A stretch of 64,000 nucleotides of DNA, from the NCBI GenBank assembly GCA_031213475.1, contig JARUPZ010000030.1:745060-809059 (forward strand), read 5' to 3'. The DNA comes from Nereocystis luetkeana (taxonomy: Eukaryota > Sar > Phaeophyceae > Laminariales > Laminariaceae). Both the position numbers and the translations under genes were made by a program. The notes below the pieces were generated by a model. It saw nothing but the letters and a program-made list of their open reading frames with translations, was not told the DNA's origin and did no database searches. Below are positions 26,064 through 62,990 of the stretch, one piece after another; positions within the stretch are counted from its first letter, which is position 1, and every line of letters starts with the position of its first letter.

Positions 26064-27845
26064 GATGCGAGAGAGCACGCGCGAACAACGAAGCGCGATT
26101 AGACACTGCCGCCGCCACCACCGCCACCGCCACACCTACCGGTGCTTGCAAACCTTGAATTTCGAGCTACCAGCCACCGGGTATATCCTTGTGATGATTT
26201 CAACGTTTTTGCTAAACGGCACGATCCACACAGACAACATACGGCAGATCACATATAAACCAGGTACTGCTGGATGTATATAATTCAGTTACATCTGCGG
26301 CACTCTGCACGTCAGGTTTGTGTGTTCCGAAGCTTGATTGTGGCCCATGCGCGCAGGTCTACCAAACAGATAGACAGACAGTTTTGGCGTGGGGTCGCAT
26401 GGCTCGGAAAAAGCGACTACTAAATAGTCGCAGTACAAAACAGAACTGCCACACGCGCATGGCGTCGCCTGCTGCTGCTGATGGGCAGAGCAGGGTTGCA
26501 ATGCCTGAATGTTGTAGTCACCTGGAGGTAGCACGCTTTCTGGACTGGTCTGGTGTCCGTTGTATTCATGCAATATCACATCATACCAGCTGGAATTTGA
26601 ATTTATACATCGAATTGGGACTCAAAATTCAGAACGTAGGTATGATAGACGCAGCTTGCTGTAGATCCAACTACTTGTTCGTGACCATATCGAAGGCACA
26701 CTCGTAGTCTAGTCTATAGCTGAAGATGACCCGCAGCTCTACGCCAGATGGTGTCTACGTGTCTAGCACAGCTTGTCCAACTTACGAACGTTTCTATTTA
26801 TGACACTTCGCGTATGTAGATTCCCGCGCTGCTCCAGACAGGCTGCGTACATGGACTTGACGTACTGCTGTTTTCAGGGAACAGAAAATTCAAAAATGTT
26901 CAAACCATGCATCCTGTGAGCAAGTCCTAGGCACACCTTCGGCCTAGATGTAGCTCTTCTCGCTCGTCGCTCTCATCACCGAGAATATCGGGGATTTTTC
27001 TGGTGTCCTTCTTGATGAACATGGTGCCCTTCGCTGAGCTCCTTGTGCCTGTCTTCCCTGAAATCTGCAAGCCTGCAAGCAGGGTGGAAGAAGGTGACGC
27101 ACAATGCGCGTATAGATATTGTGGCGTTATCAACAGGGACTTGGGATGAACATACAGCGAAACCGTCACACAGAACGGCGCACGAGGAACGAGGAACGAG
27201 CGAGGAAGTAGTTATCACTGCAAGCAGTGTACTCGCACGCCAATTCGCAGCAACGTCGGCTATCTCGCCGCCTCTGACGAAGGCGGTGTGACCTTCGGTA
27301 CCCGACGAAGCACACAAACACGCCCGGAGGTTGCAGCACACTGCTTGTAGTGGTGGGCTGAGCGATGTCTGCAGTACGGCAACGAGGGGCTACGATCGCG
27401 GCTCATCCTGAGGTCGACGAGGGACATGTAAGAGATTTTGGCTCGAGCACATGGGTAGAATGCGCTCTCAGTACGAGTACGTACGAGTCGGCTTTTTGCA
27501 GCTACTCTGTCGTCTGTAGTCTCATCTCTTCCTGTCTCCAACTGGCCACTCTGTGCGTATGTTTGTTTCATATTAATTAATGCCCATGCTACTCGTACGT
27601 ACCTGGTACAACATGTAGTTTTCTTTCTGCCGTCAAATATGATCCCGTGAGTAGCTCCTATCGTATCGTATCGTGGGTGCGCACTTGCGTCGGTGCGCCG
27701 GAATCAACACATCAGCAGTACACTCTTGCGTATTACAGTATATAATAATCAGCAGACATACCGTCGTCGCCTGTCGGTGTCGAGAGAGAGAGATCGAGCG
27801 AGAGATCGAGATCGAGAGGAGATCGAGATCGAGATCGAGATCGAG

Positions 27846-34700: not shown

Positions 34701-37700
34701 CATGTTCTTCACGAGGCAGGAGCAGCTTCTCGACATCTTTCAGGTATTCGCCAAACAGACGTCCGTGTTTCTGTCTGTCACTGTTTCTGTCCACCAATAC
34801 TACGACTTCCGTGCTCGATTTAATATATAGCTGCCTGCGTAGGCTGGCGGGTAGTGCTACATAACGCTAACAAAGGGTGGGTCGTGAGTTCGACTCAGGA
34901 ACAGACCTTCATATTTGTTCTTTCCGAGCGTGCGTGCTGGGGATATTAGGAGTTGTTGTGATAGCAGTGTGCTCTATGGGTGAGCAGTAGTGCGTGGCGA
35001 GGGGAAGGCCCCGGAGATCAACGCCGAGACCGAGTCGAGCTGACAAAGTACATTTTGTTTGTTAAGAGATAGCCTACCCAATCAGTGCTGATTATTAGCT
35101 CTACGCGCATATTTCTTTTACGGACTTAAGGCGCAATACAGCGGAGGGCTAGTGCGAGTACTGCATACCAGCCTGCGACGCCCAATTAAAGCTGAATATG
35201 GACAAAGAGTTGCGCCCTGAACTGATCGACGACGAAGGACGCAGAACCCTCGTCTCCCACCTCGACCGATGGGTTCGGCAACGAACCCAGCAAGCACCTC
35301 TTCTTGATATCATCGAAGGGTACGTAGGGTGCAACCAATGCCCCAACTGCAGCACCTACGATGACGCCCACATACTCCCCATAATACCCCCCCCCCGTCT
35401 ACCCACATAATTTCGTTCGTGTACGCGACATAATGTTTCGACTGGTCTTGCGCCGAGGGTGCGGGTATCGCTACCGATCCCTGAGCTTCTTCGGCAACTC
35501 TGACTGCTACCATGTACGCCGAATTTAGTCGGCTCGGACTTTGATCACCAGTCGATGGGGTGCGAGCTATCATGAGTCAGAGCATCCTCCCCTTCGCTCT
35601 CGCTGTGTCTCTGTCCCCCGTCGTCCATGCAACTCAGGCGTTGGAAGAGCAGAACCTGTTCTTCATCCAGAATTCTCAGGAGACGGAACACGCCCTCGAT
35701 GAGCTGAAGCAGAACTTCGGCAAAGTGCAGAAGACAATGGACGCCAAGACACAGGTACTCCACAGGCGCAGTGAGCGAGCCCAGCCCCGAATTTAACAGA
35801 GTACATGCTCAAGGCACGAGTGCACAAAAATAACAAGTATCATATACGGAAGGGACGAGTATCTGCGGAGGACTCGCTCTCGCGTCACTGAATATACTCG
35901 AAAAAGCACGTAGTACAGCCGTCCACTACTAGACAAATACTGCTATCATCTTTTTATTACTACAACAAGCAGCACCAGCTGGCGAGGCAAAACAAGGGTG
36001 TTCTGGATCGCGTTGTCTCACCAGCTGGTGCTGGTGCTGCTGTGCTTGCGGATCACGATTACCCGAGACTGACGCTCGTCGGTTGAAGGAAGCCCCCTAT
36101 CAATCCACGAATTGCAGCCCCCCATGACGAAAGTACCACATGATATGCATGGCGTGGCCGAAATCACCCCGCGAACACCACTGCCCCCCACTCCCACCCC
36201 ATCCCACCCCCCGGATATCTTACATGATGGAGCTTCCTTGTTCACTCCCCATTTTTCCGACAAAACACCTGAATCGAAGCGAACCAAACCGAACCGAACG
36301 GAACAGAACGGAACGGAACGGAACCGCACGAGACCGAACGGAACGGAGCGGAACCGAACCGAACCGAACCGAACCGAACCGAATCGAACCATTCATCCCC
36401 TCTCCTTCTGTTCACCTCCCTTAGTCCGACCAAAAGCCTTACCCGAACCTCTCTCCTCTTTCTTCTTACGTACGTACCTCACTTCTGTGTTGTCTTTACA
36501 TGCCACTGTTTTTTCCACCCAACGACATCAGCACACCCAGTGTCCGTCCTGATTATTCATCCCATACGAGAGATATTCAAATAATGGGATCACAGACCTG
36601 TGACACAGAGAAAATTAAAATTCTTCGCTTCGATTGGAGCAAGGTACGCAACCAAAAAAAAATCCCAACGTACCATGTTCGATCAAATAATACCCGGAGC
36701 CAAAACTTCTCCTCGCCCTACTTTCTTTTTCCTCGCGTGTGTGCGTGCTCTTGCTCTTCGTTCTTCGTCGGCAAAAGACCCTGCGGTCCAACATCAGCGA
36801 GCTGGTGGAAAGCATCGAGGTGGAGGAGGCGAAGGCGGAACAGCTAAGGAAGAGGATCGCTGCGAGCACGGGGGACACGTTGGACCGCCAGGAGGAGCTA
36901 CTGCGGCAGCTCAACAAGGAGGTACGTTATCGGTGGGAGGGCGGATTGACCTCAAATGTACTCGTGTTGTTGGTTTGTATCTGGTGAAGTCTATATAAGC
37001 CACTGAATCATCCACTAAGTCAGCAACGAACAAGGTATAAAGGGGAGGGCTTGTTGCGCGGTCTGGCGCTGTTACTGCAACCGATACACATACATCTCCA
37101 AAAATGAAAGAGTAGTTGTTTTGCAACCCTCGACCCCCGTGGAGATGAAACGCGAACGCCAAACGGGACACGTTGAGGCCGCCAGGAGGAGCTGTTGATA
37201 GCTGCTTCGGCTTCGTACCTGGTACGCAACGAGGAGGTGTGCTATGAAGAAGGGCTTGTTGCGCAGGCTGCTACTACTATTGGTGTGCAAACTGCTGCGT
37301 GTGGCTTCCTTCGTCTTTCTGGAACTCAAAGGGAGAGGTTTTGCCACACCGCTGCCGGCGCAATGCCCAAAACGAATTGCAAGTAGTAGTCTATGGGATC
37401 TATTGGGATGGTGACAAGTGAGCGTGTTGCCATTCCAAGGGGCGGCGCAATCGGTCGGAGGACGACGAGTTTAGGGCGTGGGTTGGTCGGGGGGGGGGGG
37501 GGGGGGAGAGGAGTCGAGCTCTTACACCCATGTTACCCCCGAATTGTGTTGTGTTCGACGTTGGCAAACCTATCATGGTTCTGTCACATCCTCAATATGT
37601 ATTCGGCGAAGAAGGCGGTCCGCTCGCGGGCTGGTATCATGACCCCACCACAAATGATGTCAGTGCCCGGTAAGCACCTTTGCGCGAGCTCTGCATGGGT

Positions 37701-40700
37701 GGGTTTTGTGGTCGCACCACACCTGATACGGGGTTGGAGGGTTCCCATTCTGTTTGGGGATTTGTTTTTCGTGCTTTCTTCTTCCACTTGGGGAAGACGA
37801 GATAAGGTTGGAATCGCAGGACAGCACTGCCACTAATACGAGGGTCCTACAGACCTTAGCTCAGCTTCGATGAAGCCATTGGAATACGCTTGGCTTTCGA
37901 CACCCATCCTAACCCTGTAACTCAAACCCTAACCCCGACCGCGTGGGAGTTATCTGGCATTGAAGTTGTGCACAAGTGAGGAGTCAGCTACTGTATACGT
38001 CGTTTGCTTGTGTAAAAAAAAATAAAGCTGAGCCAAGTACGCAAACCCTGCTGAGCAATGAAGCGGTGCCAAAATTTATGTGCCGAGAAAATTACCGGAC
38101 ACGACAGGCCTTGCGCACGCGCAGTGTTCGTGTAGCGGTTGACCGCACGCCCCGCCGCTTGCCGACCGCCCCGTTCGGCGTCCGTCCGTCTGCCCACCCG
38201 TCCGTCCGTGTCTCTCAAGGTGAAACACGTGTATGAGCGCTGTGGCTTTGATGCGTCATCCAGCCCAACAACCCTCTATATGCTGAGCGACTTGGAGGCC
38301 CGCTTGGAAGACCTTCTCAGCGATATCAGCCAGATGCCCGAGGAGTACGTTGCCAAGGCTGAAAAGGTGTGGAACAGCTGCAAGGATAGTTGGGAAGAAA
38401 AACCTACGCCGAAAAATGACGTTTTGTACGCGTTTGCTGCGCCCGCATACAGCAATTAACTAGTACGCGGCACTACCGAAGAAACTTCTATTCTGTGTCC
38501 GCGCAGAAGTACACCTATAGCACACCAGTACGTAACAACACAAGTTTGGGTGAGACAACGCAGCGCCCGGTAGGTGATCAGTTAAAAACCAAGGAACACA
38601 CGGAAGTTTGGGTAGAACCACCGACCGGGGCAGGAGGTCTCATCCAGTCCAACACTTGCATTGAATGATCGGCGGCAGCGTAAAACAATACAGTAGGAGT
38701 ACAATCGTCACGACGCCACTTGTTAAGATCAGAGCATGCGGGACACTTTGTATCCCTGGATAGGTCTGCTTATGAAGTCGGTACTCGTTGGTACTCACGT
38801 TTGTGGTTTGCTTAGAGATAGAAGAGGAGCAGCTTTATTCCTTTCGTGCACGACGGAGACTGAGACCACGCTCGTGCCTCTCCGGAAAACCAGGGGTTTT
38901 CCACCTAACATACGCCTTCCAAGTACTTCAAATACGATCCCAGTGCCTGAACCCAGGTAATTACAGGGTTTTCAACCTCATACAAAGCAGTATCATAACA
39001 CAATCAGATGAACTCAAATTTGGCACAAAATGAGGAGTCACGATTTGATTTGATCAACTATGAAAATGAACGCCCAAGCCGATCATTTTGTTGAAGGCTA
39101 GCTCACCTGCCAGAATATAGGTTGACAGGCACAGGAGAAATACAGACCTGCCCATCCACCCTACAGCTTTAGCAGTCTTTTTCTGCAAGATCGTTTTCAG
39201 TCCCAGGGATGGGCGCCGCGCTGAGAATGCACCAAGCGTGGAGTTTATCCCGGGCGAGGCCCCCCTGCTTCGAGGCAGGAGGCCTCATCCCATTCAATAC
39301 CCTGGTACTTGCATTGAATGATCGGCGGAAAATTTGTATCCTCGGTCCAGGATCAGAATATGATGAATGGCAGGGTGTATCGTGGCCTAATTTAAGCGTA
39401 CACCTAAACATTTTCGAATTTTCGTTTGATGTTCATTATATGTGGCTTCGTCGGAACGCCGACAATATATTGCCACAAAGATACATCAAAGAGCCACCAG
39501 CGTTCTGTAATACGGCGTGGGGTAAATCAAGCCTTACAGCGTGCATCTTACCACGTTGATCGAATGTCGTTACTCCCATGTACTTATAGATCGCTACAGC
39601 AGTATCTACTCTCTCTCTGTCTCCCCGCGCTTTCGTGTCTTGCCGGCTCCGCCCGGACTCTATTAATAATAGCGGTGTGCCGTTGTCCAATGCTTTGGGC
39701 ACAAGCCGAGGTGTCGATATTCTAGCACAGCTGTTGCTGCTGTATGCCACAGCAGTATTGCGCTTGGTGAAGCCTCACTCTACCAACACCAGGCTTCGCA
39801 GCTACCTTTACGTGCGGAAAATAGTAATGCTCGCATCTTTTAACAGGTAATGAGCCTCGTTTTAGCTCAGCGCTGGTAATAGCAGTGCAGGACAGATCGA
39901 GAAATAGCGTCTTCGACTTCGAGGACCTAGCACAAAGGAGCTTCATCAGACAACCGGTGGGATGGTATTCGTCCGACAACGGCGGAAGTAACACCGACCC
40001 CTCCCTCCCCTCCGCGCTCCCGCCCATCCCCACCCGCTCGCGGGTGTACAACCCCCTGGCAACCCGGGTAAAAAAATCCAGGAAAAGGAGAAGAAGCGGC
40101 GAGAAAAGAAACGGGCGGAGCAGCAGGCGCTTCAAGAGCGTATGCAGGCGAGTGGACCCCACCTTCGCTCTATGTTGGTTCTCTCGGTCTTCCTATCAAG
40201 CTTGCTGCTACAGCTACTGCTGTGAAGGGGAGGCCTGAGCATTCCATTTCCGTACCCGAGATCCAATACGCGCAACGACGGATCGAAGTCAGGACTCAAT
40301 TCCCTCGCACGCAATGAGTACACAGGAAGGACGGTCCCAAGGGCCTGGGATATTCGCATGGACTGAGTGTAAAAGCGCTGGAATGCTCTCAGCATGCATT
40401 TTTCGTGTTACACTGGAGGCTCTCCGTGGCATGTCATACTCCACTTATTTATGGTGATAATCATAACTAAATTACTGTACCCCGCGCCGTGTATCAACTC
40501 CAGGAGGAGCAGCGCACTGTGGTCAAGGGAGAAATAACGTACGCGTCCACAGAGCGACGCGAGTTGCGAGTACATAAGGGAACCGAAAACTGGAAACCCT
40601 ATCTTACAGACCGCAAGCAACACTTCTCGGAGCTGGACTAACCCCCTCCCCCACCCACGTACGCCTCTCTCCGCAGGAGGAGCGCAATCGCAAGGCCATC

Positions 40701-44139: not shown

Positions 44140-47100
44140 TCACCGCCGCCTGCGCTTCACATGTGGCGGCCGCGGTGCCCCGTCACTATCCTCCCCGCCC
44201 TGCCCCGCACCGTCGCTATCGCCACGCCCGCTCCCACGCCCTCCCCTACCCCCTCCACCCCCAGCACCTCTGGGGCTTGCCCGAGAGGAGCTAGCCCTCG
44301 AGGGACTGGCCCGCTTCGCCCGCCGCCGCTTCGACACCGGCTCCTCCTCATAGTCGCTGTCTGCATCCTCCTCGGCCGCCGCCGCCGCTACCGCCGCCGC
44401 TGCCGCCGCCGCTGCCGCCCGTCCACGCCCCCGTTTCGACGACGCCTGAGGTTTCTCTTGGAAATCCTCGTCATCCTCGTCGTCTTCCTCCACTTCCTCC
44501 TCCTCCTCTTCCTCTTCCTCCTCCTCCCCCTCCTCCTCCTCTTCTTCGTCCTCTTCCCGAGGCGCGGGAGAGCGGCTGCCGCTGCCGCCGCCGCCACCTC
44601 CCGCCCCCCCTCTCTGAGACTTCTTCTTTATGGTCGGGGTGGCGGCGGTGCCGTTGAACGAGGAGAGGGGCGAGGAACGAGAGGATGATCGCTGGGAAGC
44701 CTCCCGGATCGCTCTCTCAATCCTGTCCTTCATCGTGTCGAGGCCCTTCTGCGCCCGGATGAAGCAGTCCGACTCGTCCTGCATACACAGAGTGTATATA
44801 CCGGTACATATCATCCCACAACAAGAAACATGAAAAGAAAAAGGCGACGCGAAGCGAAGAAGAAGGAAGGGAGGAGAGAAGGAAGGAAGGAAGGAAGGAA
44901 GGAAGGACGCTGTTATCAATCGTATAAAAACACGCGGTCTACGAACCCGTCTGAGGCTTGCAGAAAGAGAAAAAATGAACACGAAACAAAGTGACACAAA
45001 CGTCTATTGCCGTTTGAACCACGCCACATCGCACACTTCCTTGGGGACGAAATTTCCGACGCAGCAAAAAAGTCACCGCGTGATTGCGGGGGAGATATAG
45101 TACACAGATTGGTGCCCCGAGGTTTACACACTACAAAAATAGTCGGGCGGGACGGGTGCAGGCAGCATGACCCTCTACCCGTACCCCGAAGCGCTCACGT
45201 CGGTTCGTGGACAATCAGCAAACACCACATTAGTTACTGTTTAGGTCGCTATCTTGGGAGTCCCGAAAGCAGTTAACCCCTTTAGAACCACAGTCCCGTT
45301 TTGGGGACAAACCACTCAAATTCCAAGTAGTTTGCCCCCAAAACGGGACTGCGGCTCGAAAGGGATTAAAAGCCTTGGAAGGAGGCGAGGGGGGGGGTGT
45401 ACTCGATAGGAGAGATGTACTCAATCTCATGCATGGCCGTAGTCGTATGACCATAGACCCTCGCACCCCTACAATGCCGGGACGGAGCATGTCGGGTTTT
45501 CTCCGACCAGGCAGACATTGCTTGCACCAAGCGCGAAGCGAAACGTGAGGTGTCTGGCGAGTCACATGAAGGGTGAGCTGCATCCTACTACGAACCGCTT
45601 TTGCATACGAATTATAGCTTCAATGAGTTGATTTAATTTCCGGTGTATATAGGCGGGGGGGGGGGGGAGGTCTTGAAATTACGGGGAGGGGGCAATGGGC
45701 GACGGGGCAGGGAGCGGGTGTAACTCCGATGCCATGCTATGGTCGTAGTCGTACGACCAATACACCCTCGCATTCCTACAAAATGCCGTGACGGAGCAAG
45801 TCGGGCTTTCACCGATCCAGGCAAACATTTTGCCTGCACCAACGCGCGAAGCGCCGTGAGGTGTTCGTCGAGTCGCAAGAATGGTGAGCTGCATCCTATA
45901 CACTAAGAACCTCCTGTGAGGCGGAATTCGGCATCTTGTGCGCACTTTCTAGCACGTAGATGACAGCGTCGAACGCAATTGGGGAGGAGGCGTTACGGGG
46001 GCGGGAGGGAGACGCACAGGACACCCGCGAAGCTTGAGCTGACCGGTCACCCCACCCCGCCGGTTATATCTGCTTGCATCAATACTTGACGCGTGCTGGG
46101 ACAATCAGCAGGCACGGCACGGAGAGCGGGTGCATTGAACGGCATCGCCAACAACAAACAATACCCCACCCGCGCTTCTTTGCGCTACCAGATGCCAGCG
46201 TCTTGGATCATCCTGCAAAAATCGTGGCTCGAGCCAGCTGCTGCTCCGGTCCGTACAACTACCCGTTCAACTACTGTACCCGTAAACCTGCACCACTTGG
46301 GCAACGACACACACACCACCCCAGGGAGTGAGTGAGTGAGTGAGGGGGGGGGGGGAAGGCAACAACCGAAACCGACAAACCCAGGAAAAAGTGTGGGGAG
46401 TAGCAGCCTTGATGATCGGTCCACTAGAGACCGAAGCTGCTGTCTACCGACATCTTCTGCCTACATACTACATACATATGTATACCAGTACCAGGTACAC
46501 GAGCGCTCGTGCTTACAACAGCAGTAGCGCTCGCTCGTGCGCACTGACCTGGTTGTAGAGCTGCGCGTTGGTGTAGACGGTGATCACGTCCTCCCACAGC
46601 TTGGACACGCCGAGCTTCGCGTAGCGCCCCTTCTTCTGGCGCTTCTTGATCGTGCTGAAGTCCAGAGGGCGCGCGACCTTTGTCCGGGAAGAGGTGGCAC
46701 GCGCACACACATACGCAATGCAGTTGAGGGCCAAATATTACACAAAAAAAATATTTCTCCCTCATCCCTGATTTTCCTCCTTTTTTTCTTGAAAAGCAAG
46801 AGGAATTGAAAAAAGAGAGGAAACATATCGTACTCGTAGGAAGTACTTCCTGAGTCAGAGGGCAACAAAAAAAGAAGAACGCATACAGTAGCTCCCCCTC
46901 TCTTCATGAGGAAAACAAATCGGGAAGATCAAAAATCGAAAATACAAAAAATATATATATATTATATATATACAAAAACACGGGAAACATCCAGGAAACA
47001 TCCAGGAAAATCAGGACAAGAGAACACTGCGTACGGTACGTATTTTGGGAACATAACGGCCCTATATACGTACGACGACGACGGCAGCGAAACTTACTAC

Positions 47101-50100
47101 TGATAGGCTTACCACCCGGCCCGGCGCCTCGATCAATGGTTGAAAAGCCTTTTCGGGCAGATATATCATCCAATGCTGATCCGCATGATCTACAGCAGTA
47201 CCTGGTATGGTATATAGCTCAAGTTGCCGGGAGCCGTACATATAATCTGCATACCTACCTGCTATAGGGACATGTTACCTGGGTCGGGATCTGTACCGTA
47301 CAGATCCCGCACAGCACACCTCGTTACGGCAGGCTGAGATCTGTAGATAGATAGATATATAGATAGGTAAATAGACCATGATAATATCTGTCCGATGTGA
47401 GATATATAAAAAAAAATGGTNNNNNNNNNNNNNNNNNNNNNNNNNNNNNNNNNNNNNNNNNNNNNNNNNNNNNNNNNNNNNNNNNNNNNNNNNNNNNNNN
47501 NNNNNNNNNNNNNNNNNNNNGAAGGCTACCTGGCACCTGGACTATATGTACGCACGTGTACATACCGGGAAAGGGTACATGCGAGCAACAGCTTTTTCAT
47601 CCAGCAGGCGAGAGGGTGCCACACAACCATTTTTTTTTAACAAGACACATACATAATAATTACATCATACCTGGTATACATATATATCGACGAGGCAAGA
47701 AAGGGGGGAAGGCACGAACCGTAGAAAAGAAGCACCTAAATAATAAATGGGATAAAAAAGTGAATACCTGGTATATATATATATATGCATACATATCTGG
47801 TGGCATTTAAGTTGTCTCCAGGAACCCGCGCGACACGATACTTATAACTATCACCACCTTGTGTGCGTTGCGCTAGTGGTGGAGGTGGTGGTGTTTTTTT
47901 GTTTTTTTTTGCTTTCTCTTTTTTTTTTTACAGCGATTTCGAAAGGGGTATTTTTACTTCTCGGCGTATATGAAAAAAAATCGCTGTAAAAAGAATCGGA
48001 CCCCCAGGTTGCACGAGAGGGGTTTTTACCTTTAACCAACACGTCAACAAGAGACACGGGGTTAGGCAAAAGAGCATGCGGCGTAAGAAGCCAAACCACA
48101 GCAGCAGCGGTACTGCTGCAGGTACCTGCGGACTCGTACGACAAGCTGCAAGATAACGCTCCGCCCTCTTCGGACAATTTTCCGAGCTGATTTACCTCGA
48201 CAAAAAATGGGGGAAAATAGCGCAGTGCAGACGCTCGGCGAGTAGCGATGCGTATACCTGGAAACAAAACATTCCCACAACATCTTTCCACAAAATAGGC
48301 CGCCATGTTTCGGTGTCCCCCCCACCCCCTTCCCTCCCTCCCCACTTGCTATTAGAAGAAAATAGGCTCATAAAATCGTCTGAGGGGTGGTCGGAGGCCT
48401 ATTATTAATAATGGAGCTCTGCCGTGTTTGGTAAGGAGTCATGATTCATGTTATTGTACCCCCCCCCAAAAAGAAGCAAACTTTTCGAAGTATGCCGCTA
48501 TTTCGGGGGACCACAGTTAATAGGACCTATGACACGCATAAAAACCTATCTATTTAACCATCTTTACTAACAATAGTTGGTCCTATTAACTATGGTCCCC
48601 CGTAATAGTTGTATGGGATGCCATGGTCGGGATTCAGCCACCACGGGACGAAAACGGGATATTTTTTCGACATCTAGCCACGACGGTATTCGACGACTTT
48701 GTTGATGCGGTACCGGGGAGGGGGGCGGGGGTCCTCTTATCACTCGTGTGATATATATATATATAGGGTGGGCGGTGCGGCGCATTATATTACCATTCTG
48801 CCCCGAAGTATAAGGACCATTTATCCATTAATATTCCATATAAACGGTTGTATATATAGGGACAGTGTGGCAATATAAAGTAGTTTGTCTCAAAGAACCG
48901 GACCGCAGTGCTAAAAGGGTCTACACGTAGAAGAGGCGACCCTAATGGCCACCTGGTACCTGTTTTTTTTTTGCAGCTTGTTCTTTTCAAGTGCTTGCCA
49001 CATCGTCTGCGGGGGGGCAGGCGACAGTTCGTTCATTCTATTTTTTCTTTGTTCTTTTTTTCTTCCTTCTTTCTTTCTTTTTCTCTTTCGATTTGTCTTC
49101 TTTGTTTTTGTTTTTTCTTCGTTTGTTTTCTTTTCGTTTCTCTATTTCATAGAATGTGCATGTAGTGCCTGCCGTATCCAGTACGATGACATGGCATTGC
49201 ACTGCCCACTGCTGTGCTTACTGCATACGTGGCAACGTAGCATCTCTGTGGCGTAGCTTTGTGACCACAGAACTCTTATCTCTTCTAGTATTGAAGAATC
49301 GGCACGGACACTGGTTGTGCTGGATGTCGACGGGGAGAAAAAACGGTTTAATGTGAAGAGCACACACCTCGTATACGATACGGCTGCCACTCTGCCGCCC
49401 CACTATACACAAGGGACCGGTTACCATTACAGTTATCGACACACAAACGGGCCGTAGACAGCGGGAGCCCGGGTGTTAAAAAAAGAAGCGTCAAGTTTGG
49501 TGTCCAGGCTTTGGTGTCCAGGCTCTAGCGTCTCCTTTTTCTCCGTTTTTTTTTTTGTCCAGGCTCAAGCGTCTCCTCGATCTCTCAACTCGAAAAAGTA
49601 CAAGATTTTAGAGTTGGCTCCACCACTATTTTCGAGCTGTGAGCTGCCTTTCTTATGTAAACTTTGAAGCGTTTCTTATGTAAACTTTGAAGCGTTTCTT
49701 ATGTAAACTTTGAAGCGTTTCTTATGTAAACTTTGAAGCGTTTCTTATGTAAACTTTGAAGCGTTTCTTATGTAAACTTTGAAGCGTTTCTTATGTAAAC
49801 TTTGAAGCGTTTCTTATGTAAACTTTGAAGCCTTTCTTATGTAAACTTTGAAGCGTTTCTTATGTAAACTTTGAAGCGTTTCTTATGTAAACTTTGAAGC
49901 GTTTCTTATGTAAACTTTGAAGAGTGTTCGTGTCGTCGACTCAGCGTTTCTTAGCCGCGAGCGCCCACCACATGTAAGGGCAACGTAGGTACCGGTACAC
50001 GTCAAGAGGCCAAAAGCTAAAGAGACGCTGCCACCTATATATGTATACAAGGTTCCCCTCCGGGACGTGCCTAGGGGAGCGGCGCAAGAAATTATTCTCG

Positions 50101-53100
50101 CCTTCGTTCGCAATACCTGCACACCTGTGTCTGTTCAGAACTGAAGTATTACGGGGGACCATAATAAATACCTGGTAGGACCAAATATTGTTCGTTAAAA
50201 AAAAACGAAATATATAGGTTTTTGTGTGTACCGTAGGTCCTATTTATTATGGTCCCCCGTAATAGTAACTGCGTCCACCGTGAAGAACACACACATATAT
50301 TTTGGAGGACAGACTCGCTGTTTGTGGCAATAGTAGTGCGGGGCCATTGCTACTATAATAATATATAAGAGGGTGTACGGGTAGCAAGTGGATATTGATC
50401 GTAAACAGATGTGACGCGGCGATCAACCCTCCAATGCTCGCGGCGTAAACGTAAGTACAAAAAGGTGCGCGAGGTCGAGGTTGCGACACGATACTTTATG
50501 ACCGGCTGAGTAAAATCCAGGATATACAAAATATATTCCCGCAAAATAAATGTTTCTTCGCGCTCAGGGTAAAATAAACATAACATCGAGATACTGAGAG
50601 TATACTCGCAGTACATACTCCTCGCAATACATATTCCCGAAATACTGCCAGCGCTCCAAGTATTCGAGTTGTCCCCAGCGGAAGTAATTTGCTCCAACTC
50701 CCACTCGTCGGACCATCTGTGAGGATTTTTGTCGACACGCGGTGCGCAGACGGTCGAAGTATACTTCGCACTCCAAGTATTACTGAGCATATTGAGAGTA
50801 TTTCGGTACTGCGAGTACTTGCAGTACGAACCAACGGACGAAATATCTGGTACTTACTTGCAGAACCCCGAAATACATAAAAAATCACTTGCAGTATCTG
50901 CTACATGCAGCAGTACAAACCCGAAATACTGCGAGTGCACGAAGTACCTACTCCACATACAGCGTTTTCTCGAGCACACTTTGCTTTAGTCCCAAGTAAT
51001 ATTACGGGGGACCATAGTTAATAGGACCTATGGGATACATAAAAACCTATATATTTACCCATTTTTACTAACAATATTTGGTCCTATTAACTATGGTCCC
51101 CCGTAATAGGAGCAACTGTGAAAGGTTGAGGTATGCACGCCCGCCACACGTAAAAGCGCGCCCAAACTCCGCGGTCTTCCTTCCGAAAAAACACACTAAA
51201 ACTTTTACGACCATAGTCAAAAGGATCCGACCTATGGTACACCTAAAAAACTATATATTTACCCATTTTTACTACCAATATTTGGTTCTATTAACTATGG
51301 TCATTATAAATATTAGTAGGTCAGAAGAGCAAGGTGGATGTACTGCTGTGGTACAAAAAAAGGTGAACATAAAAATACGCGAGGATATTTTAGAGTAGCT
51401 TGTACAGGTACAACTGCATGCATGTACAGCAGTACTGCTACTCCTGCTGAAAAAATGCCATGTTGTAAGATACGGCAGCAGAAGATACGCGTATACTGCA
51501 ACAAAGGAACGTGTACTGCTGTGCTCTTTCATTCAGCTGGCGCTAGGACCCATCGGTCAGCAGTGTAGACACACAGGAGTGAGTAACTACTGTAAGTATT
51601 TTTGTACGAATGCTGCTGTACACGATGCTCGTACGACCGATTGGTTGTGAATGAACACGATCCAGAGATGATCGGTACGGAGCAAAAAATGCCGGAAAAA
51701 TGCCAGTCACACAGCAGCAGCAGGTATGTATGTGTGTGCATAGATAGGCCAATGCCGACGACAACAACAAACAATACTGCTGTAGTAGCACTGAGAGTGC
51801 AGCGCGCATCTGCCGTATGCGCACTGTGCCGAGCACAGCTGGAGCAGTGGCATTGTTGGATCACACACAGGAATACCCAGAAGAAGCAGCAAGGAGAGAA
51901 GGGATGATACAGGTACGCCAGCCTGGGTGTGTACGTAAAAAAGTATGAAAAAAAAATCAGGTACGTACCTGGTAAGGCAGATGGTGAAATACGGACGGCA
52001 GACTCCGACAAACACAACGAGCCACAGCGATACTGCTGCGCATATGGGTGTGTCGCACACGCACGGCGCGTGGGCGGCAGCGTTGGAACGATGGGATCTA
52101 TCTGTGATTGTCTGTTGCGTACTTGGTGTGAGGAAAACAGACGCATAGACCTGGACAACAATTTACCGATACGTACGTACAAAATAACGCCTCTCGTGCT
52201 GAAACCAGGGAAATCGTCTTATCCACTCCCGCCGAGACCTCGACCAATGTGTCCGGCCGGGCTTCCCGTGTCCGAGCATTTGGTGTTTCGCCGAAAAGTG
52301 CTTTATACTGTAGTATTCTGTCTCTCTACCGTGGATCATTCAATGTAAGTATTGGATTGGAAGAGGCCTCCTGCGCCGGCCTGTGGTCCCGCCCATACTT
52401 CGTTACGCCTCCTTTAAGATTGCCTTTGTAGTTGACCGCTGGTCCGGGGCAGAATAGTCTCACCCAAACTTCTATCACCTGAACTCAAGTCTTAAAAAGT
52501 TGGCAAAAGTACGAAAATTTGACAAACATACGTACACATATATATGCGTGCCACTCTGTTCATAAATTTAAGGCCCTATTAATCAATAAATTAACCTCCA
52601 AGTGTTCCTTAAATTTACGGACATATAGATACCACGGGAAAAAGCGCTGCGGATAGCGCGAGGGAGGAAGGGAGAGAGGGGAGGGAGAGAGGGAGGGAAG
52701 GAAGAAAAGGGTGCGACTTCTGACACAAAAAAAAAACAAAAAGCGGAAGGTGGGGGTTGGAAGGAGAGGGAGAAGCAACAAAACTGAGCAAGACCTCGCA
52801 CGCGCCTCTCCAATTCTCTAAGGGGATAAAACAAATATACCCGCACACGCCCGCCCGTCCCTCAAGCAAGCGGCCAGACAGTCCAGACCCCACCCCATCC
52901 GATCCAAACGCCTCCCCCCCCCCCCCCCCCCCCCTCCCTTCCCTTCCTTTGGCTTACCGCTCCAACAAAACATTCACAATTCCGTCCTCACTTTTTCTGC
53001 AAAGCGTCGAGCTTCTCCCACCCTTCCTCTAGCGATGCCCACGGAGGATCCCCCCCCCCCCGGTCCGCCTCCCGCCTCCCTCCTCCTCCCCCTGCCGACG

Positions 53101-56100
53101 CCGCGCCCCCCTTCTTCGTCGGCGCCCCTCCCCCCTTACCCTTCGACCCCCCACTCCCACTCCCACTCCCACCACTCCCACTCCCACCACCACCACCACC
53201 ACTCCCCTTAGCCTTCGCCACCTTCGCACCGGAAGCCCCCTTCGCTCGTTTGGCGGAGCTAGGCGCGCCCGAGTCGGCATCGTCCCCGCCCCCACCCCCA
53301 CTCCTAGCAGCAGCAGAAGAAGACGGCTTGCGCTTCGCCGACGACCCAGACCCGCCGCTGCCACTGCTACCGCCGCCGCTGCCGCCGCTGCCGCTGCTGC
53401 TGCTGCTGGCGGTGCTCATGCTGCTGCCGCCGCCGCCACCTTTGGACGGCCTACCGCGGCGCGTGCTGCTGCTGCCAGTGCCGCTGCCAGCGCAGTCTCG
53501 GCACAGGGAAGAGCCGGCGCCGCGAGCTTTGGCGGCGGCCTCTGCAGTCGTGCCCGCGCTCTCAGAGTGCTGCAACAGCTGACATTCCTTGCACTGGATG
53601 TAATCCTACAAAAAATACGGACGACGGGGGAGAAGTTACGAAGAACGTAATGAACTCGTACCAGGTACGTACGTACGTACGCAAGTGTTTACACATAAAA
53701 AACGGAGCGAACATAAATCATAACAGGAGTTTGAGGTACGTGGGTGGCGTTTGGTGGATCCGTGTGTGCGCGCACTCCCAGGGGCTGGCGGACAGGACGT
53801 GAAGGGCTTCGTGTTGAGTGACTTCTCGTTGTCCTGGCCCCCCGCAAGGGCGGGTAGAACCGAGGGTCAGGCGAAGTCACTTGCCCTGGGAGGCAAACCG
53901 ACCAATAACAGCGCGAGCTCGTTCGAATGTTCGTCTCTCGCCAATCCATTCCTCCCCGAGACCGAGGTACGCGATGATCGACGACCTCCTTCCGCCGACG
54001 CACTAAATAAACACAACCAGGACGCACACAAAACGCGCACACGCACGTAAACTCACACACGTTGAACACCCATACATCGACGCATCTACTCAACAGCACT
54101 AAAAATATCCCAACCCGCGGATTACCCCCCCCCTCTCCATCTCGAAAGGGATGCATGATCAACGGCCAAATGACTACAATTCAAGCAACAAATCAGTACC
54201 CCCCCCAACACCCCCCCCCCCCCTCCTCCCCTCCGACACCTATCACACCAGTCTCCTAAACACGTCTCCCTCCCCTGCCCGAGTACACCCCCCCCCCCCC
54301 TCCCCCGCCCCCTCCTCCAACCCCCTGCCCACCCCCCCAGCCCAGTCCAGCCCACCCACCCACCCACCCACCCACCCACCTGAGCCTCGCCCTCCACCTC
54401 CCCGTCCTTCCCCACGCGCGGCGTCGGCCCTGGCCGACCCCCTCCCCCGCCTCCTCCTCCTCCTCCTCCTCCTCCCCCTATCCTGGAGCCGTCCCCCGAT
54501 TTTTTCGAAGACCCCGACGACTCCGACTTGAGCCCCCCCGCCCCCCCACCCCCCCCCCCCCCCCCCACCGCCTCCATTAGACCCCCCCCTTCTCGATTTT
54601 TTCGTCTTGGGTGTCTTATTACCCCCTCCTCCCCCTCCTCCACCACCACCACCACCACCACCACCACCATCCGCCGCCATTGCCGTTGCTGCTGCTGCCA
54701 CTGCTGCCACCGCCGCATCCTTACCTCTGGTCTTAGCATCCTCCTCGTCTCCGCTCGCCTCCTCCCCGACCCCGGCACCGTCACCCGTCAAAGGTGACCG
54801 TCTACCGCCATCGCCATCCTCACCACCACCACCACCACCACCGCCCTCTTGCTGGGCGTTCGAGGAGCGGTCTCTCGCTCTAGACTTGCCCTTTGAGGAG
54901 GAGGAGGAGGAGGAGGAGGTGGTGGTGGTGCCAGTGGCCGAGGAAGGTGCGGCGGCGGAGGAGGAGGAGGAGGAGGACCCCTTGCTTTTGCTGCCTGAGG
55001 TGGGGGGAGGGGAGCGACGAGGAGGGAAGGGGGCGAGGTAGAGCGGACGGGGGGAGGAGCGGAGGGGAGGGGAAGCAGGAGGAGGAGGAGGAGGAGGAGG
55101 TAAGACGGGCGGGACGGGGCGGGGGGGGAGGCAACGAATAATATCGAGGGGCGAGCAGGACTGAGATCGACCTGTGTTGGTTGTTGGGAGTAGCGGGGAA
55201 ACGCACATCGACGACAAATCTAGCGGTCGGCACGGACGGATGAGAACAACGGCACTGCAAGTCACAGCTCCAGTACTGTACCGTGCCGTACAGGTACTGC
55301 TGTAGAGACTACCTGATGATGTTGTTGCGACGATGCCATCGTTGGTGATGGCGGTGACAGCGGCGGTCGGGACCTATCCCCCCGCAAGCAACCAATCAAT
55401 CAACCAACCAACCAAATTAACCAACAGCCCAACCAACCAACCCAATCACCGCAAAAAAAAACCCCAGCAATAATCAGACATTCAAGAACAGAAACGAAAA
55501 CCGCCAAATTACTGAACAACGTCAAACAAACAACCACCCACACAACCCCCCCCAACACACCAAATGAGACCATCCAACGACCACGAAGCCATCGAGCAAC
55601 CAACTGACCCACTAACCGACCAAGCAACCAAACCATCCAACAACCAAGAAGCCGTCACGCAACCAACGAACCCAGTGGAGTTTACCACTTATTAGAGATT
55701 GGGTTTGGCTTAGGGTCAGGGTTAGGGTTCCTCTGATTGGCTCAGGGTCAGCGTTAGGGTTGCTCTGATTGGCTTAGCGCCAGGGTTACTTCTATTGGTC
55801 TCGTACACAGTGTGTGTGTCAACCATTTTTTCGAATAAATGGTAAGCAATTCTGAAAAAAAAAAAAAAAAAAAAAAAAACCGAACCGAACCCACCCAGCT
55901 AACCAACCAACCTGATATACACTCACCTGCTTTCTTGGAGGCTTTCTTCGCCGGCGGCTTCCTCTCGAACCTTACCTGCCCCTGCTTGCGGTGCATGACG
56001 CACAGGAACAGCTGGCGGCAAGGGCAACGGCAGCAGCACAGCACAGGACCGTAAAAAGTCGCAAAACATTACAAAAAACATCAAACGTGAATAACAACGG

Positions 56101-59100
56101 CAACCAAACGGAGAGAGGTTGAGTGGGAGGGTAAGATAGAAAGAGCGAGAGGGTGAGAGACAAAAAAAATATAGCGAAAGAGAGAGAGGGGGGGGGAGGG
56201 GGTGTACTCGATAGGAGATATGCACTCGATCTCATGCATGGCCAGGGTCGTATGACCATAGACCCTCGCATACCTACAATGCCGGGACGGAGCATGTCGG
56301 GTTTTCACCGACCAGGCAGACATTGCTTGCACCAAGCGCGAAGCGCCGTGAGGTGTCTGGCGAGTCGCATGAAGGGTGAGCTGCATCCTACCAAGAATCG
56401 CTTGTGAGGCGGACTTTCTTGCATATGGATGACAGCTTCCATGAGTTGATTTAATTTCCGGTGTAGGCATTTCCAGAGACAGCAATGGGAGTACAACGTA
56501 ACTGCCTCTTGGGTGCCTTACCACAAACACTACATGAGGGGGGGGGGGGCGGGCTTCGGTCCACAATCTCAACGCGAGACACAATACACGATACACGACA
56601 CTGCGTTACCTCTCTCAGGCATTCTGTAAGACTCTAGTGCGCGCACACAGAGGGGGGTGGGGGGGGGGGGGGGGTGAGCTAAGTATCCGAGCGAGAACAG
56701 ATGCCGTCGCCACGCGGAAAAAAAACAACACAATACCCATCGTTTAGATTCAAACCACTCAGCCCAGCCCAGCCCAGCCGGCGAAAAATCAAGTCGACAG
56801 ACAGAACAAGCAAACCAACAACAAAACAAAAACACACAAACACACACAAACAAACAAACAAATCAAAACAATACAAACAAACACACAAACAAACAATACA
56901 GATGAGAGCAAACAGGCGCACCTTTCCATCAGCGTCCGGCTCGCCGAACTTCCACCCCTCCCTGATGGCGCACGCGTAGTGGGTGTTGACCTGGCACGAC
57001 TGGACGTGGCAGCCGATCAGAGCTCCCTGATGGCCGCAAGACGTACACTTCAGCGCCACCCTCTTCCTCGCCTCGTCCACGCCGTAGTACACCGGGTTTC
57101 GCTCGACAACACCACCCGCATCACCACCCGGGGACGAAGACCCAGCAGCTCCCCCCCCACCCTTCTTCTTGCCTCCGGCAGCCGACGACGGCTCCGTCTT
57201 TACCGACGAAGACGAGGTCGTGGTTTTCGAGGAGGCGTTCTTTTCTCCACCGGGCTTGGTGGTGGTGGAGGAGGAGGCGTCGGGGGCGGGGTCCAGGTAC
57301 TCCACGAAGCACTCCGGGGTGTAGAGCATGCAGTTGATGTGCAGCCAGATGGGGAGTTCGCCGTGCTTGATTGTCCTCTGGACGAAGGGTGGCTGCGTTG
57401 CGTCGAGCGTCGCGTTGCGTAGCGGTGAGTTTTTTGGGGTACGCAGCGTTGTGACGAAGAGCCAAGAGCATCAGACCAACCCAAACCATGACCAACCCAA
57501 ACCATGGCACAAAGGGGCAACAACAGCGATATCAGCGACAGGAGACAGGCACAACGCAGGTCGGGGCGAGTTTGGGGCGGGGGGGGGGCTTGGGGGGGAT
57601 TTTCGGGTCCTCCATCAGTTGACGAACCGAACCGAACCGAACCGAACCGAACCGAACCGAACCGAACCGAACCGAACCGACTTGGCCGCTACGACCTCTG
57701 ACCGGAAATACGAGACACATTTGTATTCTGTTAGAAACACCGAACGGAGCTTGTATTCCCGCTCATAGCGTTGAGTCATTACTCGGAGTGGCCGGATAAA
57801 GGCAACTAGAAAATAACTGGCTCAACTTGTCTCCAAAAAAAAGAGAAAAAAAAAAACAGCACGGGCATGGCCAAAGATGCACGACCTGCGTACCAAAAAG
57901 ACGAAGAGAACCTCCGCAATTTTTTTTTACCGGACGCAACTACTGTATTAATCAGCTGCCTGTACGAACAATCTGAATACATCGTGTATGCCCAATTTTG
58001 AGGGAGAGGCGCACAGCGACGGCCCTGCCGCAGCAGTAGATCATGCACTAGAAATGACGGGCGATGCAGCAGAAAACATACCAGTATAGTATTACAGGGG
58101 GGGGCATACTAAATACCTGGTAGGGCTTACGGTACACGCGAGAAACCTATATACTTCGCGCTATTTTTACTATTCTAATAACAATATTTGGTCCTATTTA
58201 CTGTGGTCCCCCGTAATACTAATAGTAGCTATAAAGCGCTGAGTAGAGGTTCGGGCAGAGTTTAAAAACAGACTTGAACACACACGTATCTGAGAGCACA
58301 GGCGTCGAAGCTGCAGCACCGAAAACAATCACTTCGGCGACTCACGCGCGGACTAACCGGTTGACACCCCTCTCTCACCCTGATGAAGGCCCCCTGGAGC
58401 GAGTCGGCATCGTCCACGTCTCCCTTGCAGAAGTAGCACACCGGGGCCCGCCCGTCCTCGAGCTGGGCCTCCTGCTTTTTCGTGAACTGGGCCGCCGGCT
58501 GGGGCGGCGTCTTGGGCTGCATACGAGGATGCAAGAGGCAGGAGGAACCAAAATAAAGGCGACAAGAAGGCGAGTGGCGGTGGCGGCAACTAAACATCGG
58601 CGTCAGTATGTACGCACGAAAAAGAGGGACAAAAACCTATCACACGTGCAGATAAATCATCCACAGATCATCCACCGATCATCCACATATCATCCACCGA
58701 TCATCCACAGATCATCCACGTACCATCCTCAGATCATCTACAGATCGCCCAGACCCGGAGCTGCGGTTGTAAGATGCTGCGCAGGATCTGCGCGGTTAAA
58801 ACACTACAGATCCATCCCAGGGAATACACGTGCTGCCGTCGTATACCATGCAGATCACACCGATCAGGAATATATGATCTATCTGCCCTCGGGAGGAGCT
58901 ACCGTACAACAGATCACTAGGTGGGAACGATCTGTAGATGATCTGTTGCGGGGTGGGAAACCCCCCACCACTATGGGCGTAAACATAAGGAAGCTTTACT
59001 CATTAACATGAAGACCAAACGGTCCCGTTGCGGGGGGTCATAGTAAATAGGACCTACGGTACACACAAAAACCTATATATTTTCTTATTTTTACAAGAAA

Positions 59101-61070
59101 TATCTGGTCCTTTTTACTATGGTCCCCCCTGATAGTATTCGCGCCGAGAGCGGCTGTGGTGGCAACAGAGAACCGGAGTCCCCCTGTAAAAAAGCAAAAA
59201 AAGCACACACACAGATTTGCATTGACAAACCACTCGCAAAAAATCCGTTCCAACGCGCACTCTGGTACTCAAGAAAAAACTACACGACAACCAGTACATA
59301 ATACCTGGTGCTTTTTAGGGCTAAAAGCGTGACAAACAGTATTCTTGGAAGCTCCCGAGGGTGACAGCTATCAACTCTCCCCCCCCCCCTTTACGGCCCC
59401 CATCCTTCCTCCTACAACTCCCTCCATCTCTCTCGTCCCTTCCACAACTTCCCCGCTTTCTTCCCTACACAACTCCCCCTGCCCTTCCTTTTGTAACTAC
59501 TTCCCTCCCTCCTACACTCTACGACAGCCTCCTGCCTCTACACCCCCCCCCCCCCCCCTCCCGCCCTTTTACAACCCCCCCTCCCGTCCTTTTACAACCC
59601 CCCCTCCCCCCACAGCAATGTTCACCTGGTCGGTGCAAACCGTGCTCAGTCCCGGCATTGCAGGGTTCCTAGAGGCCAATGGTTATACATACGACTACAG
59701 ACATGCACGACAATCAATAGCCCCCCCCCCCCCCCCCCCGTCCTGGTATCGTATACAGGGATGCGAAGGTCTATGGCCACACGGCTACGGCCATGCATGA
59801 TAATGAGTACCCCCCCCCCCCCCCCCCCCCGAGCATGCCTGCCTGCCTACCTTCCGCTTCCCCTTCTCGCTCCCGCTGTTCCTCTGCCTCTGCTGCTCCT
59901 CAAACAGGGCGATATCTTGCGGCTCCCAATCGTGATCGTCACATACCATCCACTTGCCCTTCTTCACGTAGCGGGTTCCGATGAGGCACTCCGGGCAGCG
60001 TGCTTTGGCGCAGCGCAGACACTAAAAAAAAAATAAGAAACGCGAGTTCGTTCGTCAGGTTACGGCAGCGGCGGCGGCATTTTGTTTCGTTGGCTGGTTT
60101 GGGTAGTTGGTGAGTCGGCCACTACAGTAGTTGGTTAGTTAGGTCGTTGGTGTGTTGAATAGTTAGGTACCGGTAGTTGGTAAGTTGGTAAGCTACGTCG
60201 TAAGTAGGTCGGTTAGTTTAGGTAGTTGGGGAGTCGGTTCGTTGGTTAGATAGGCCGTTGGTATGTTGAATAGTCGAGGTGGTTGGCAAGTTGGTTAAGT
60301 TAGGTAGGTGGTTAGCTACGTCGTAAGAAGGTCGGTTAGTTTAGGTAGTTGTTGAGTCGGTTAGTTGGTTTGTTGGGGCGCTGATATGTTGATTAGTTAG
60401 GTAGTTGGTTAGTTAGGCACTTGGGTACTTGGTAAGTTGGTTACTTTAGGTAGTTGGTAAGTTGGTTAGATCAGGTAGTTGGTAAGGTAGGTAGTTGATC
60501 AGTTAGGCCGTTGGTAAGTTGGTAAGCTAGGCAGTTGGTTACTTTAGGTTGGTGACTGCAGTAGTTTAGGCAGCTGGTAAGTAAGTCAGTTGGTAAGCTG
60601 GTTACAGCAGTTTTAGGCACTGTAGTTGGTTATTTATAGGTTAGGTAGCTACAGTAGTATACAGTAGTCCGTATTTGGGACTTTACAGAAAAAACACGTC
60701 GAATCCAAAGCAGAGGATAATTAATGGTAGAGATAGTGAACCTTCCACCTATGCTCCGAGTACTACAGCAGTAGCGAATAAAGTTACGTACCAGGTATTT
60801 CCGAGAGAAACTGCTTCAGGTACTTCCGTGTACTCGCAGTATTCGGGTTTTGTGTATCGCGAGTACTCGCAGTATTTCGAGATTCTATGCTGCGGACACT
60901 GCCCTACTCGCAGTATTTCGGGGATTACAAGGCATATTGAGGCGTGTTGGTTCATATATTCTAGGCTCGTTAGTTTAGATGGTTTGTTAGTCTGTAGTTG
61001 TCGGGAGACTTGAAACAAATTGGAAACTACGTCGAAAACAAAAAGTGACGGGCTCTCGCACACAAGCGTC

Positions 61071-62264: not shown

Positions 62265-62839
62265 AAAACATCATGACATCATGGGAGTGGGATCAGGAGG
62301 GGGTGGGATGGGTGCAAGGGTGGGGGGGGGGGGGGGGGGAGGGAGGGATGAGGGGGGGGGGGAAGCACGCCAAATAACAAGCAGCAATAAAATACCAGAA
62401 AGAGACGAGGCGTAAAAACATCGCACGTACAACAAAATACCAGGTACTCCGTCAATGCCGCAGGTGGGGTGGAGAGTACTATTCATGCTTCCTTCTTGTG
62501 CGGGGCCGTAAAAAAACGAAAGCTGAGAAAAAAAAAAAAAGAGGGCAGAACACGCTTAGATTCCAAGCACACTCAAATATTCAACACCCCCAAACACGCA
62601 CAGCAGCAACGGCAGCAGCAACGGCAGGAGCAGTAGAAAAGCACAAGCACAGCAGCAGCAGCAGGAACGGCACACAGACACCATGCGCTACCCTAAATGC
62701 CTCTCCAAGGCACACGCACACACGAACAGACACATGTCGCCCGAAGCTGGGGGCAAGCACAAAACCAAAACGACCCACCCACCCGGCTCCCACCATCTCC
62801 CCCGCCATCAAACGTACCGTGCACCCTGCAAATCGCGTG

Positions 62840-62870
<31 letters not shown>

Positions 62871-62990
62871 AACCGAACACCAAAAACCACGCACCCCTCC
62901 ACGGTCCATAAATACACCGCAAGAGCAAGATCATGACCACGACCATCACTATTCTATGTACCTGGTATACTACTGTATACCAGGTATATA
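62265..62990. other. Region upstream of the PHD-bromodomain start
   Basis: Contains G homopolymers (about 62320-62362) and an exceptionally long G run of roughly 31 bases (62839-62869), CAG/AGCA short repeats, and the inverted TACCTGGTA...TACCAGGTA pair at 62959-62987. No upstream coding exon is recognisable. Confidence 0.55.

Follow-up and report, generated by a model that had tools for sequence, protein, structure and literature searches.

What has placed the same 9-bp near-palindrome, TACCWGGTA (W, A or T), throughout a 64-kb stretch of the genome of the brown alga Nereocystis luetkeana? The stretch, referred to here as the window (64,000 nucleotides, C30:745060-809059; contig JARUPZ010000030.1 of assembly GCA_031213475.1), had received an initial annotation from its sequence, in which the motif was read as the footprint of a TA-targeting transposon family with CCWGG ends or, failing that, as the product of an undescribed micro-insertion process. 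The footprint reading is supported by the genome-wide excess of the motif, by inserts in a miniature inverted-repeat transposable element (MITE) named M1, by paralogs that lack the motif, and by the length variants of the insert. We put at about three in four the probability that TACCWGGTA marks places from which a TA-targeting, cut-and-paste DNA element with CCAGG ends was excised and where the break was then repaired; such putative sites are called scars below.

Abundance of the motif in the window and the genome

The window contains 25 exact copies of TACCWGGTA, compared with 0.25 expected and a maximum of 2 in 100 shuffles. The motif is the most over-represented 9-mer there (25 versus 0.57 under an order-2 Markov model, with a low-complexity filter applied), and 44 copies are found at up to one mismatch (9.6 expected). 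The earlier count of 'about thirty' is fair for the motif with its close variants, and the positions given with it were correct within about 5 bases. In the whole genome (465,085,209 bases in 1,987 contigs) there are 182,395 sites, or 392 per Mb. The motif written backwards served as the control and gave 1,744 sites in the same genome, so that the genome-wide excess on which the initial annotation depended is 105-fold. The window density (25 in 64 kb) equals the genome average, and an estimated 0.0076 motif sites are present per TA, about one TA in 130.

Twenty regions of 10 kb, two adjoining the window and 18 from other contigs, hold 61 sites versus 2.0 in simulation, with at least one site in every region; five further 10-kb regions hold 7 sites, and two of these five are without the motif. 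Outside the window, 68 sites thus fall in 25 regions, 23 of which carry at least one, and the 314-kb sample contains 93 sites. Three bacterial metagenome-assembled genomes (MAGs) provided incidental negative controls, in which the motif and its backwards form occur 2 versus 5, 5 versus 8, and 23 versus 14 times.

Copies decayed by one base occur in the genome. The mismatch classes of the window are near chance (19 copies with one mismatch versus 12.3, s.d. 4.0; 128 with two versus 127). The 200-kb sample has 88 one-mismatch copies versus 40, an excess of about 48 next to an exact-match excess of about 59, and 399 two-mismatch copies versus 419 (s.d. 25). The first decay class is present and the second is not visible, meaning that the scars are young on the point-mutation scale or that the process has not been running for long. 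A rejection of steady-state neutral decay, apparent from the window alone, is softened by the 200-kb sample.

Filled and empty sites

All three filled/empty comparisons described initially hold. The M1 arms at 50169 and 58114 are exactly 7 bp longer than empty arms (TA replaced by TACCTGGTA), and the repeat at 22491 exceeds its empty copy by 6 bp (TA-CTGG-TA). The two filled arms are opposite arms of the MITE, as had been reported, and use the same homologous TA. A fourth case is found at 39298, where TA-CCCTGG-TA is set against two empty copies. The repeat at 22491 had been called tRNA-like, a label that has to be dropped: ARAGORN (bacterial setting) detected no tRNA and Rfam gave no match at the gathering threshold. 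The gains observed are whole 6-8-bp, TA-duplicating inserts and not point mutations. The filled/empty pairs thereby display the TA duplication around a remnant that characterizes Tc1/mariner elements; gain mainly by point mutation, as expected of a HIP1-like palindrome or a binding site, was not found.

Among the 27 window sites tested against paralogs (the 25 exact copies and two length variants), four have a deciding paralog, and in all four the alignment improves once the insert is removed (gain 9-11). The remaining 23 gained at most 2 and are uninformative; none of 300 control deletions reached a gain of at least 8. A comparison over 264 kb had 22 informative sites among 83 (overlapping double scars entered once), and 8 of these favoured the empty form by a margin of at least 5; 48 of 250 controls were informative, one favouring the empty and 30 the filled form. 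A motif-blind scan of 314 kb and of the chimeric contig L123 (see below) yielded 185 insertion alleles of 3-16 bp from 2,683 paralog alignments. TA was the commonest duplicated flanking dinucleotide (33; next GT, 11), and the TA-flanked inserts were led by CCWGG (7), then CWG (4). Low-complexity or poorly flanked alignments were filtered out of the paralog scans, by which the motif-blind scan lost the known event at 58114.

MITE M1 as a repeated target

M1 is about 109 bp long, with TA-bounded inverted repeats and ends TATTACGGGGGACCATA. It is common: of 53 M1-like hits, the 314 kb hold 45 and three MAG contigs the other 8. The M1 ends gave no match in the viral contig collection. At one TA of M1, 5-base inserts (pattern AAACCTA-N5-TATATATTT) are present at 742 + 754 = 1,496 places genome-wide. 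Among 100 of these listed, 94 are CCWGG (62 CCAGG and 32 CCTGG, counted by hand) and the other six are single substitutions of CCWGG; the indels at TA are thus non-random, as the footprint proposal had implied. The empty form of this TA (14-base core, exact) is found at 5519 + 5533 = 11,052 places, and about 12% of copies are filled. Three different TAs of M1 carry inserts, and both insert orientations occur. Within 15438-17084 of the window, four ends like TTGTCGGAAGGCAAGCATAA are present in both orientations and are possibly termini of another element around an M1 copy.

Length variants and the register of joining

The proposed element would have inverted repeats starting 5'-CCAGG beside the TA duplication. 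A staggered cut would leave 5-base overhangs on the flanks, which would anneal via four base pairs and one central mismatch; repair of the mismatch to A or T and re-joining would then give TA-CCWGG-TA. The A/T centre of the Sleeping Beauty footprint arises by such mismatch repair. The A/T centre of the present motif, which had been offered as evidence, is void as such when taken alone, because TACCTGGTA and TACCAGGTA are mutual reverse complements. The TA targeting alone would point to a Tc1/mariner-like transposase.

With CCAGG kept by the left flank and CCTGG by the right, full register pairs four positions with the centre mismatched and gives CC(A/T)GG. A one-base misregister predicts the 6-base products CC[A/C][G/T]GG (CCAGGG, CCCTGG, CCATGG and CCCGGG), and the opposite misregister predicts the 4-base products C[C/T][A/G]G (CCAG, CTGG, CCGG and CTAG). 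Inserts of 6 bases at the same M1 TA were found at 96 + 95 places genome-wide. Three of the four predicted products make up 72 of 100 listed (CCAGGG 44, CCCTGG 18, CCATGG 10); the rest are CCTGGG, CCTAGG, CCTTGG and TATATT (2 each) and 20 distinct singles, and CCCAGG does not occur among the 100. Homopolymer slippage does not predict this spectrum, since it would equalise CCCAGG with CCAGGG and CCTGGG with CCCTGG, which together stand at 2 versus 62.

The misregister model was fitted post hoc to this M1 listing, and the counts in 314 kb (M1 included) form a second data set. In it the predicted 4-base products number 50 versus 15.5 expected (CTAG alone 4 versus 2.2) and the 6-base products 14 versus 1.5. 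Mirror ends do not predict the variants either, and the products specific to them are at or near chance (CAGG 14 versus 12.1, CATG 5 versus 5.6, CCCAGG 2 versus 0.8, CCTAGG 0 versus 0.2). This register asymmetry is the strongest evidence for two staggered ends having been joined, over the insertion of a ready-made 5-mer, and fits well a remnant in which both putative element ends are joined; it does not separate 3' from 5' overhangs. Since the length variants match misregistered joining of CCAGG and CCTGG, footprints are favoured over direct insertion of a 5-mer.

Target signature and a second insert class

When both flanks of the 93 sites were pooled and counted from the TA, position +1 was a pyrimidine at a frequency of.81 (background.60) and A at just.04, +6 was T at.48 (background.24), and +7 was A or T at.85 (background.52). 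All three positions lie outside the 9-mer. The symmetric preference extends 7 bases outward, as would be expected of a symmetric integration complex, and corresponds to the palindromic target preference around TA of Tc1/mariner elements. The CTGG and CCCTGG variants have the same signature in weaker form (+6 T.47, +7 W.66), as do the one-mismatch copies. Purine-pyrimidine alternation in the flanks scores 4.72 of 6 in the window versus 3.24 at other TAs, and is weaker in 314 kb (4.06 versus 3.15).

A separate 3-base remnant class, TA-CWG-TA, also exists. Together with TA-CTGCTG-TA it was put apart as a second class because its flank signature differs, the above preferences being missing and A/T being avoided at +1. 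The sequence TACTGCTGTA or its complement occurs 39 times in 314 kb (0.8 expected), and second-class inserts are located at L134:2417, L139:9674, L140:270, L148:8783 and L147:4614.

Double scars and a second haplotype

The first 100 genomic sites listed include eight pairs 7 bp apart (TACCWGGTACCWGGTA), five with equal and three with opposite centres; simple tandem duplication does not account for the opposite-centre pairs. A second haplotype is represented by L123 (JALZWD010000061.1), a bacterial MAG contig of chimeric make-up whose algal DNA is orthologous to C4 of the genome (3,703 aligned columns, 31 substitutions, 6 indels). All three motif sites compared are filled in both haplotypes, and scars common to two haplotypes imply that these are inherited. 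The empty state that the initial annotation would look for in other strains was not seen at these three sites; at one of them the assembly has an extra CTGG-TA, possibly a tandem duplication.

Algal DNA is carried by L121, L122 and L123 (bacterial MAGs JALZVB, JALZVY and JALZWD). In L122 and L123 this DNA is linked to genes of bacterial appearance, indicating contaminated or chimeric records, and L121 was matched via M1 only. L122:1-99 is a 99-bp sequence of which many small genomic contigs carry copies at 96-98%; it may be a satellite or an unplaced repeat.

Relation to known systems

In Sleeping Beauty, the cut is staggered and end joining then leaves CAG at the TA site (PMC8151067); footprints are given as 2-4 bp in Tc1/mariner elements (PMC7913693) and 0-4 in the pogo-type Passer (PMC9976928). 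The present motif resembles the TAC(A/T)GTA of Sleeping Beauty and Tc1 in the TA duplicated on both sides, the odd-length palindromic insert, here putatively derived from both ends, the heterogeneity of end joining and the AT-rich palindromic target preference (PMC8151067, PMC7913693). The Sleeping Beauty footprint, however, has 3 bases (CAG) and a known element, whereas here there are 5 bases, about 182,000 sites and no element recognised in 314 kb. In ciliates, very many TA-bounded internal eliminated sequences are excised, each leaving a single TA, unlike the TA-CCWGG-TA seen here.

TA duplication with short terminal remnants after excision is also a feature of plant mariner/Stowaway MITE (Osmar) footprints (PMC4561436); unlike with Osmar, no source MITE was recognised, and the resident TA MITE, M1, has other ends (TTACGGGGG). 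Cyanobacterial HIP1 is likewise a single short palindrome at extreme density. It differs in that the present motif is gained by an insertion that duplicates TA, and in a eukaryote, whereas HIP1 has been linked to methyltransferases (PMC4390886). Ectocarpus has 17 Mariner-Tc1 families with almost 12,000 copies, mostly non-autonomous, and the terms 'excision' and 'footprint' do not appear in the main text of that report (PMC12477816). Literature searches by motif strings gave, among the titles listed, none on a dispersed genomic motif, those on brown algae with Tc1 and MITE found no paper, and the listed matches of footprint searches held nothing on this subject.

Search for the source element and competing explanations

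Several observations weigh against the excision reading. No inverted-repeat family with TA-CCWGG ends, such as the initial annotation anticipated, was recognised in 314 kb by a search for 16-base ends at most 3 kb apart, which could miss longer elements and those whose ends have degenerated. The inverted 16-base end pairs are nearly all motif copies or near-copies whose loci share no end; motif-bearing 16-mers form 12 inverted pairs (9 outside L131) versus 6 direct ones (4 outside L131). Half-sites in 314 kb are without an element-like common extension. At M1, the AAACCTACCAGG junctions (100 of 381 listed) are made up of intact, decayed and double scars and of unique sequence, with no recurring new end by eye; the scan required a non-T next base, so that ends reading CCAGGT escape by design. 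The dominant remnant of 5 bases lies outside the Tc1/mariner range of 2-4 (PMC7913693), and the predicted product CCCGGG is absent from the 100 listed 6-base M1 inserts (3 versus 0.4 in 314 kb). In the 264-kb paralog comparison, 3 of the 22 informative sites favour the filled form and 11 are undecided, and some of the 185 motif-blind alleles are alignment-shifted duplicates of one event. Some filled MITEs may have been inherited within M1 from one filled copy and not be new. The extra CTGG-TA, the sole allelic difference, is ambiguous between a second scar and a 6-bp tandem duplication, and its fit to recent activity is equally ambiguous.

The element is absent or rare in the sequence examined. 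Cut-and-paste movement would be expected to leave many scars per element; the ratio of scars to elements is still striking. It is possible, although doubtful, that a TA-targeting ghost transposon, whose ends were CCAGG and whose 5-base stagger was unusual, visited roughly one TA in 130 and was later removed almost wholly, leaving about 182,000 scars and no element. Excision might have run away with no re-insertion to balance it, or a dedicated system of elimination, even a programmed one, might have been at work. A candidate element at 21874-22604 of the window was rejected, having imperfect inverted ends and a body that recurs in 314 kb merely as short pieces. The similarity within a half-site repeat (window 38959, L138:2672, L149:6762) continues beyond the TA, and hence it has no element end. 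A viral origin was also rejected: the densest of at least 120 viral-contig stretches are arrays of tandem repeats in L100 and L023 and, by inspection, a repeat in L031 that looks like collagen coding sequence, and the other stretches, with 2-5 motifs, had been chosen for a close motif pair and are hardly informative.

That an enzyme puts a fixed 5-mer at TA directly, by template copying or by short-oligonucleotide strand transfer and with no larger element involved, is unlikely. The insert is indeed one sequence, and no source was recognised in 314 kb or at the listed M1 junctions, but a single oligonucleotide does not predict the misregister-type length variants of two inverted overhangs, and CCATGG holds parts of both ends. 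Still less credible is a maintained motif, a protein-binding site or HIP1-like palindrome connected with CCWGG methylation, which mutation would have created and selection preserved. CCWGG is a known methylase and restriction site and the motif is sharp in the window, where one- and two-mismatch classes are near chance; this explanation nevertheless conflicts with gains that come as whole 6-8-bp, TA-duplicating inserts, with the preferences at +6 and +7 outside the motif, and with the 200-kb one-mismatch excess, whose size beside the exact excess fits decaying copies.

EcoRII cleaves before CCWGG and leaves a 5-base 5' overhang, so if an EcoRII-like enzyme cut out an element flanked by TA-CCWGG and the ends were re-ligated, exactly such a junction would result. 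We regard this route as more improbable again, because the length variants require imprecise annealing and the target signature requires an integrase anyway; the identity of CCWGG with the EcoRII site may be a coincidence. Mariner elements of algal viruses do carry endonuclease and methylase genes, one having an EcoRII-C domain and a cytosine methylase (PMC3627910), which speaks for it. The least probable explanation of all is that the filled MITEs are a subfamily, in which one inserted copy spread by MITE transposition and the variants arose by slippage. The 62:32 orientation bias at one M1 site and the use of the same TA by several filled copies agree with such spread, which may account for part of the MITE counts; against it are the spread of the motif over 23 of the 25 regions sampled, with most sites lying outside M1, the three TA positions and both orientations of the M1 inserts, and the 62 versus 2 asymmetry.

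Footprints are usually sequenced singly in assays, and here the apparent joining products of one type of break can be read by the thousand at identical target sites inside a MITE. On the excision reading, sequence data would suffice to measure the length of overhangs, the register of joining and the bias of mismatch repair. Should the element be truly gone, it would be detectable by its scars only, and a census that counts intact transposons could overlook major activity in the past. As inherited markers, the scars can also serve for comparing strains.

Features of the window and its surroundings

Table 1. Motif copies, variants and M1 copies in the window. Rows marked as scars are exact motif matches, unless called variants, and are putative excision sites.
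Feature	Position	Strand	Remark
Scar TACCAGGTA	731..739		
Scar TACCTGGTA	899..907		
Scar TACCTGGTA	1234..1242		
Scar TACCAGGTA	15243..15251		
Length variant TACCCTGGTA	15275..15284		
Scar TACCAGGTA	15699..15707		
Scar TACCTGGTA	15850..15858		
Scar TACCTGGTA	15894..15902		
Scar TACCAGGTA	15998..16006		
MITE M1	16245..16353	-	no scar
Scar TACCAGGTA	21874..21882		48 bp from 21922 twin, identical site and right flank
Scar TACCAGGTA	21922..21930		48 bp from 21874 twin, identical site and right flank
Variant TA-CTGG-TA	22491..22498		two-copy repeat; empty copy 22747-22821
Scar TACCTGGTA	25794..25802		
Scar TACCTGGTA	27600..27608		
Motif TACCTGGTA	37216..37224		possibly coding (inspection); may be a chance match
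Variant TA-CCCTGG-TA	39298..39307		in repeat 39271-39328; empty copies 38626-38675, 52313-52471
Scar TACCAGGTA	46489..46497		
Scar TACCTGGTA	47199..47207		
Scar TACCTGGTA	47668..47676		
Scar TACCTGGTA	47765..47773		edge of (TA)n run
MITE M1	48499..48607	+	no scar
MITE M1	50147..50264	-	with scar
Scar TA-CCTGG-TA	50169..50177		one arm of M1 50147-50264; 7-bp insert versus empty arms
MITE M1	51000..51108	+	no scar; perfect 29-bp inverted repeats
MITE M1	51209..51302	+	degenerate ends; 5-bp TCCGA insert, no CCWGG scar
Scar TACCTGGTA	51966..51974		
Scar TACCAGGTA	53659..53667		at (CGTA)n run
MITE M1	58090..58218	+	with scar and second insert TA-TTCTAA-TA
Scar TA-CCTGG-TA	58114..58122		other arm, in M1 58090-58218; 7-bp insert versus empty arms
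MITE M1	59028..59134	+	no scar
Scar TACCAGGTA	60789..60797		empty form fits paralog better by 7 score units
Scar TACCAGGTA	62438..62446		
Scar TACCTGGTA	62959..62967		
Scar TACCAGGTA	62978..62986		

The window has 53% GC and a eukaryotic look. Its protein matches are to a protein kinase, a PHD-like zinc finger (zf-HC5HC2H) and an exon for an Ofd1 C-terminal domain, the best named relative of which is from Ectocarpus sp. 12 (52% identity). The open frame of this domain lies at 5788-6753 (PF10637, E 4.6e-27); the same frame gave no match to an oxygenase domain. Copies of a 300-400-bp repeat family are found near 32.6-33.5, 45.4-45.9, 56.2-56.5, 59.6-59.8 and 63.5-63.7 kb, and comparison between copies reveals 4-bp inserts TACA, TATA and ATAC at 45898, 59684 and 59753. 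A minisatellite with a unit of about 23 bp (cttatgtaaactttgaagcgttt) occupies about 49800-49920.

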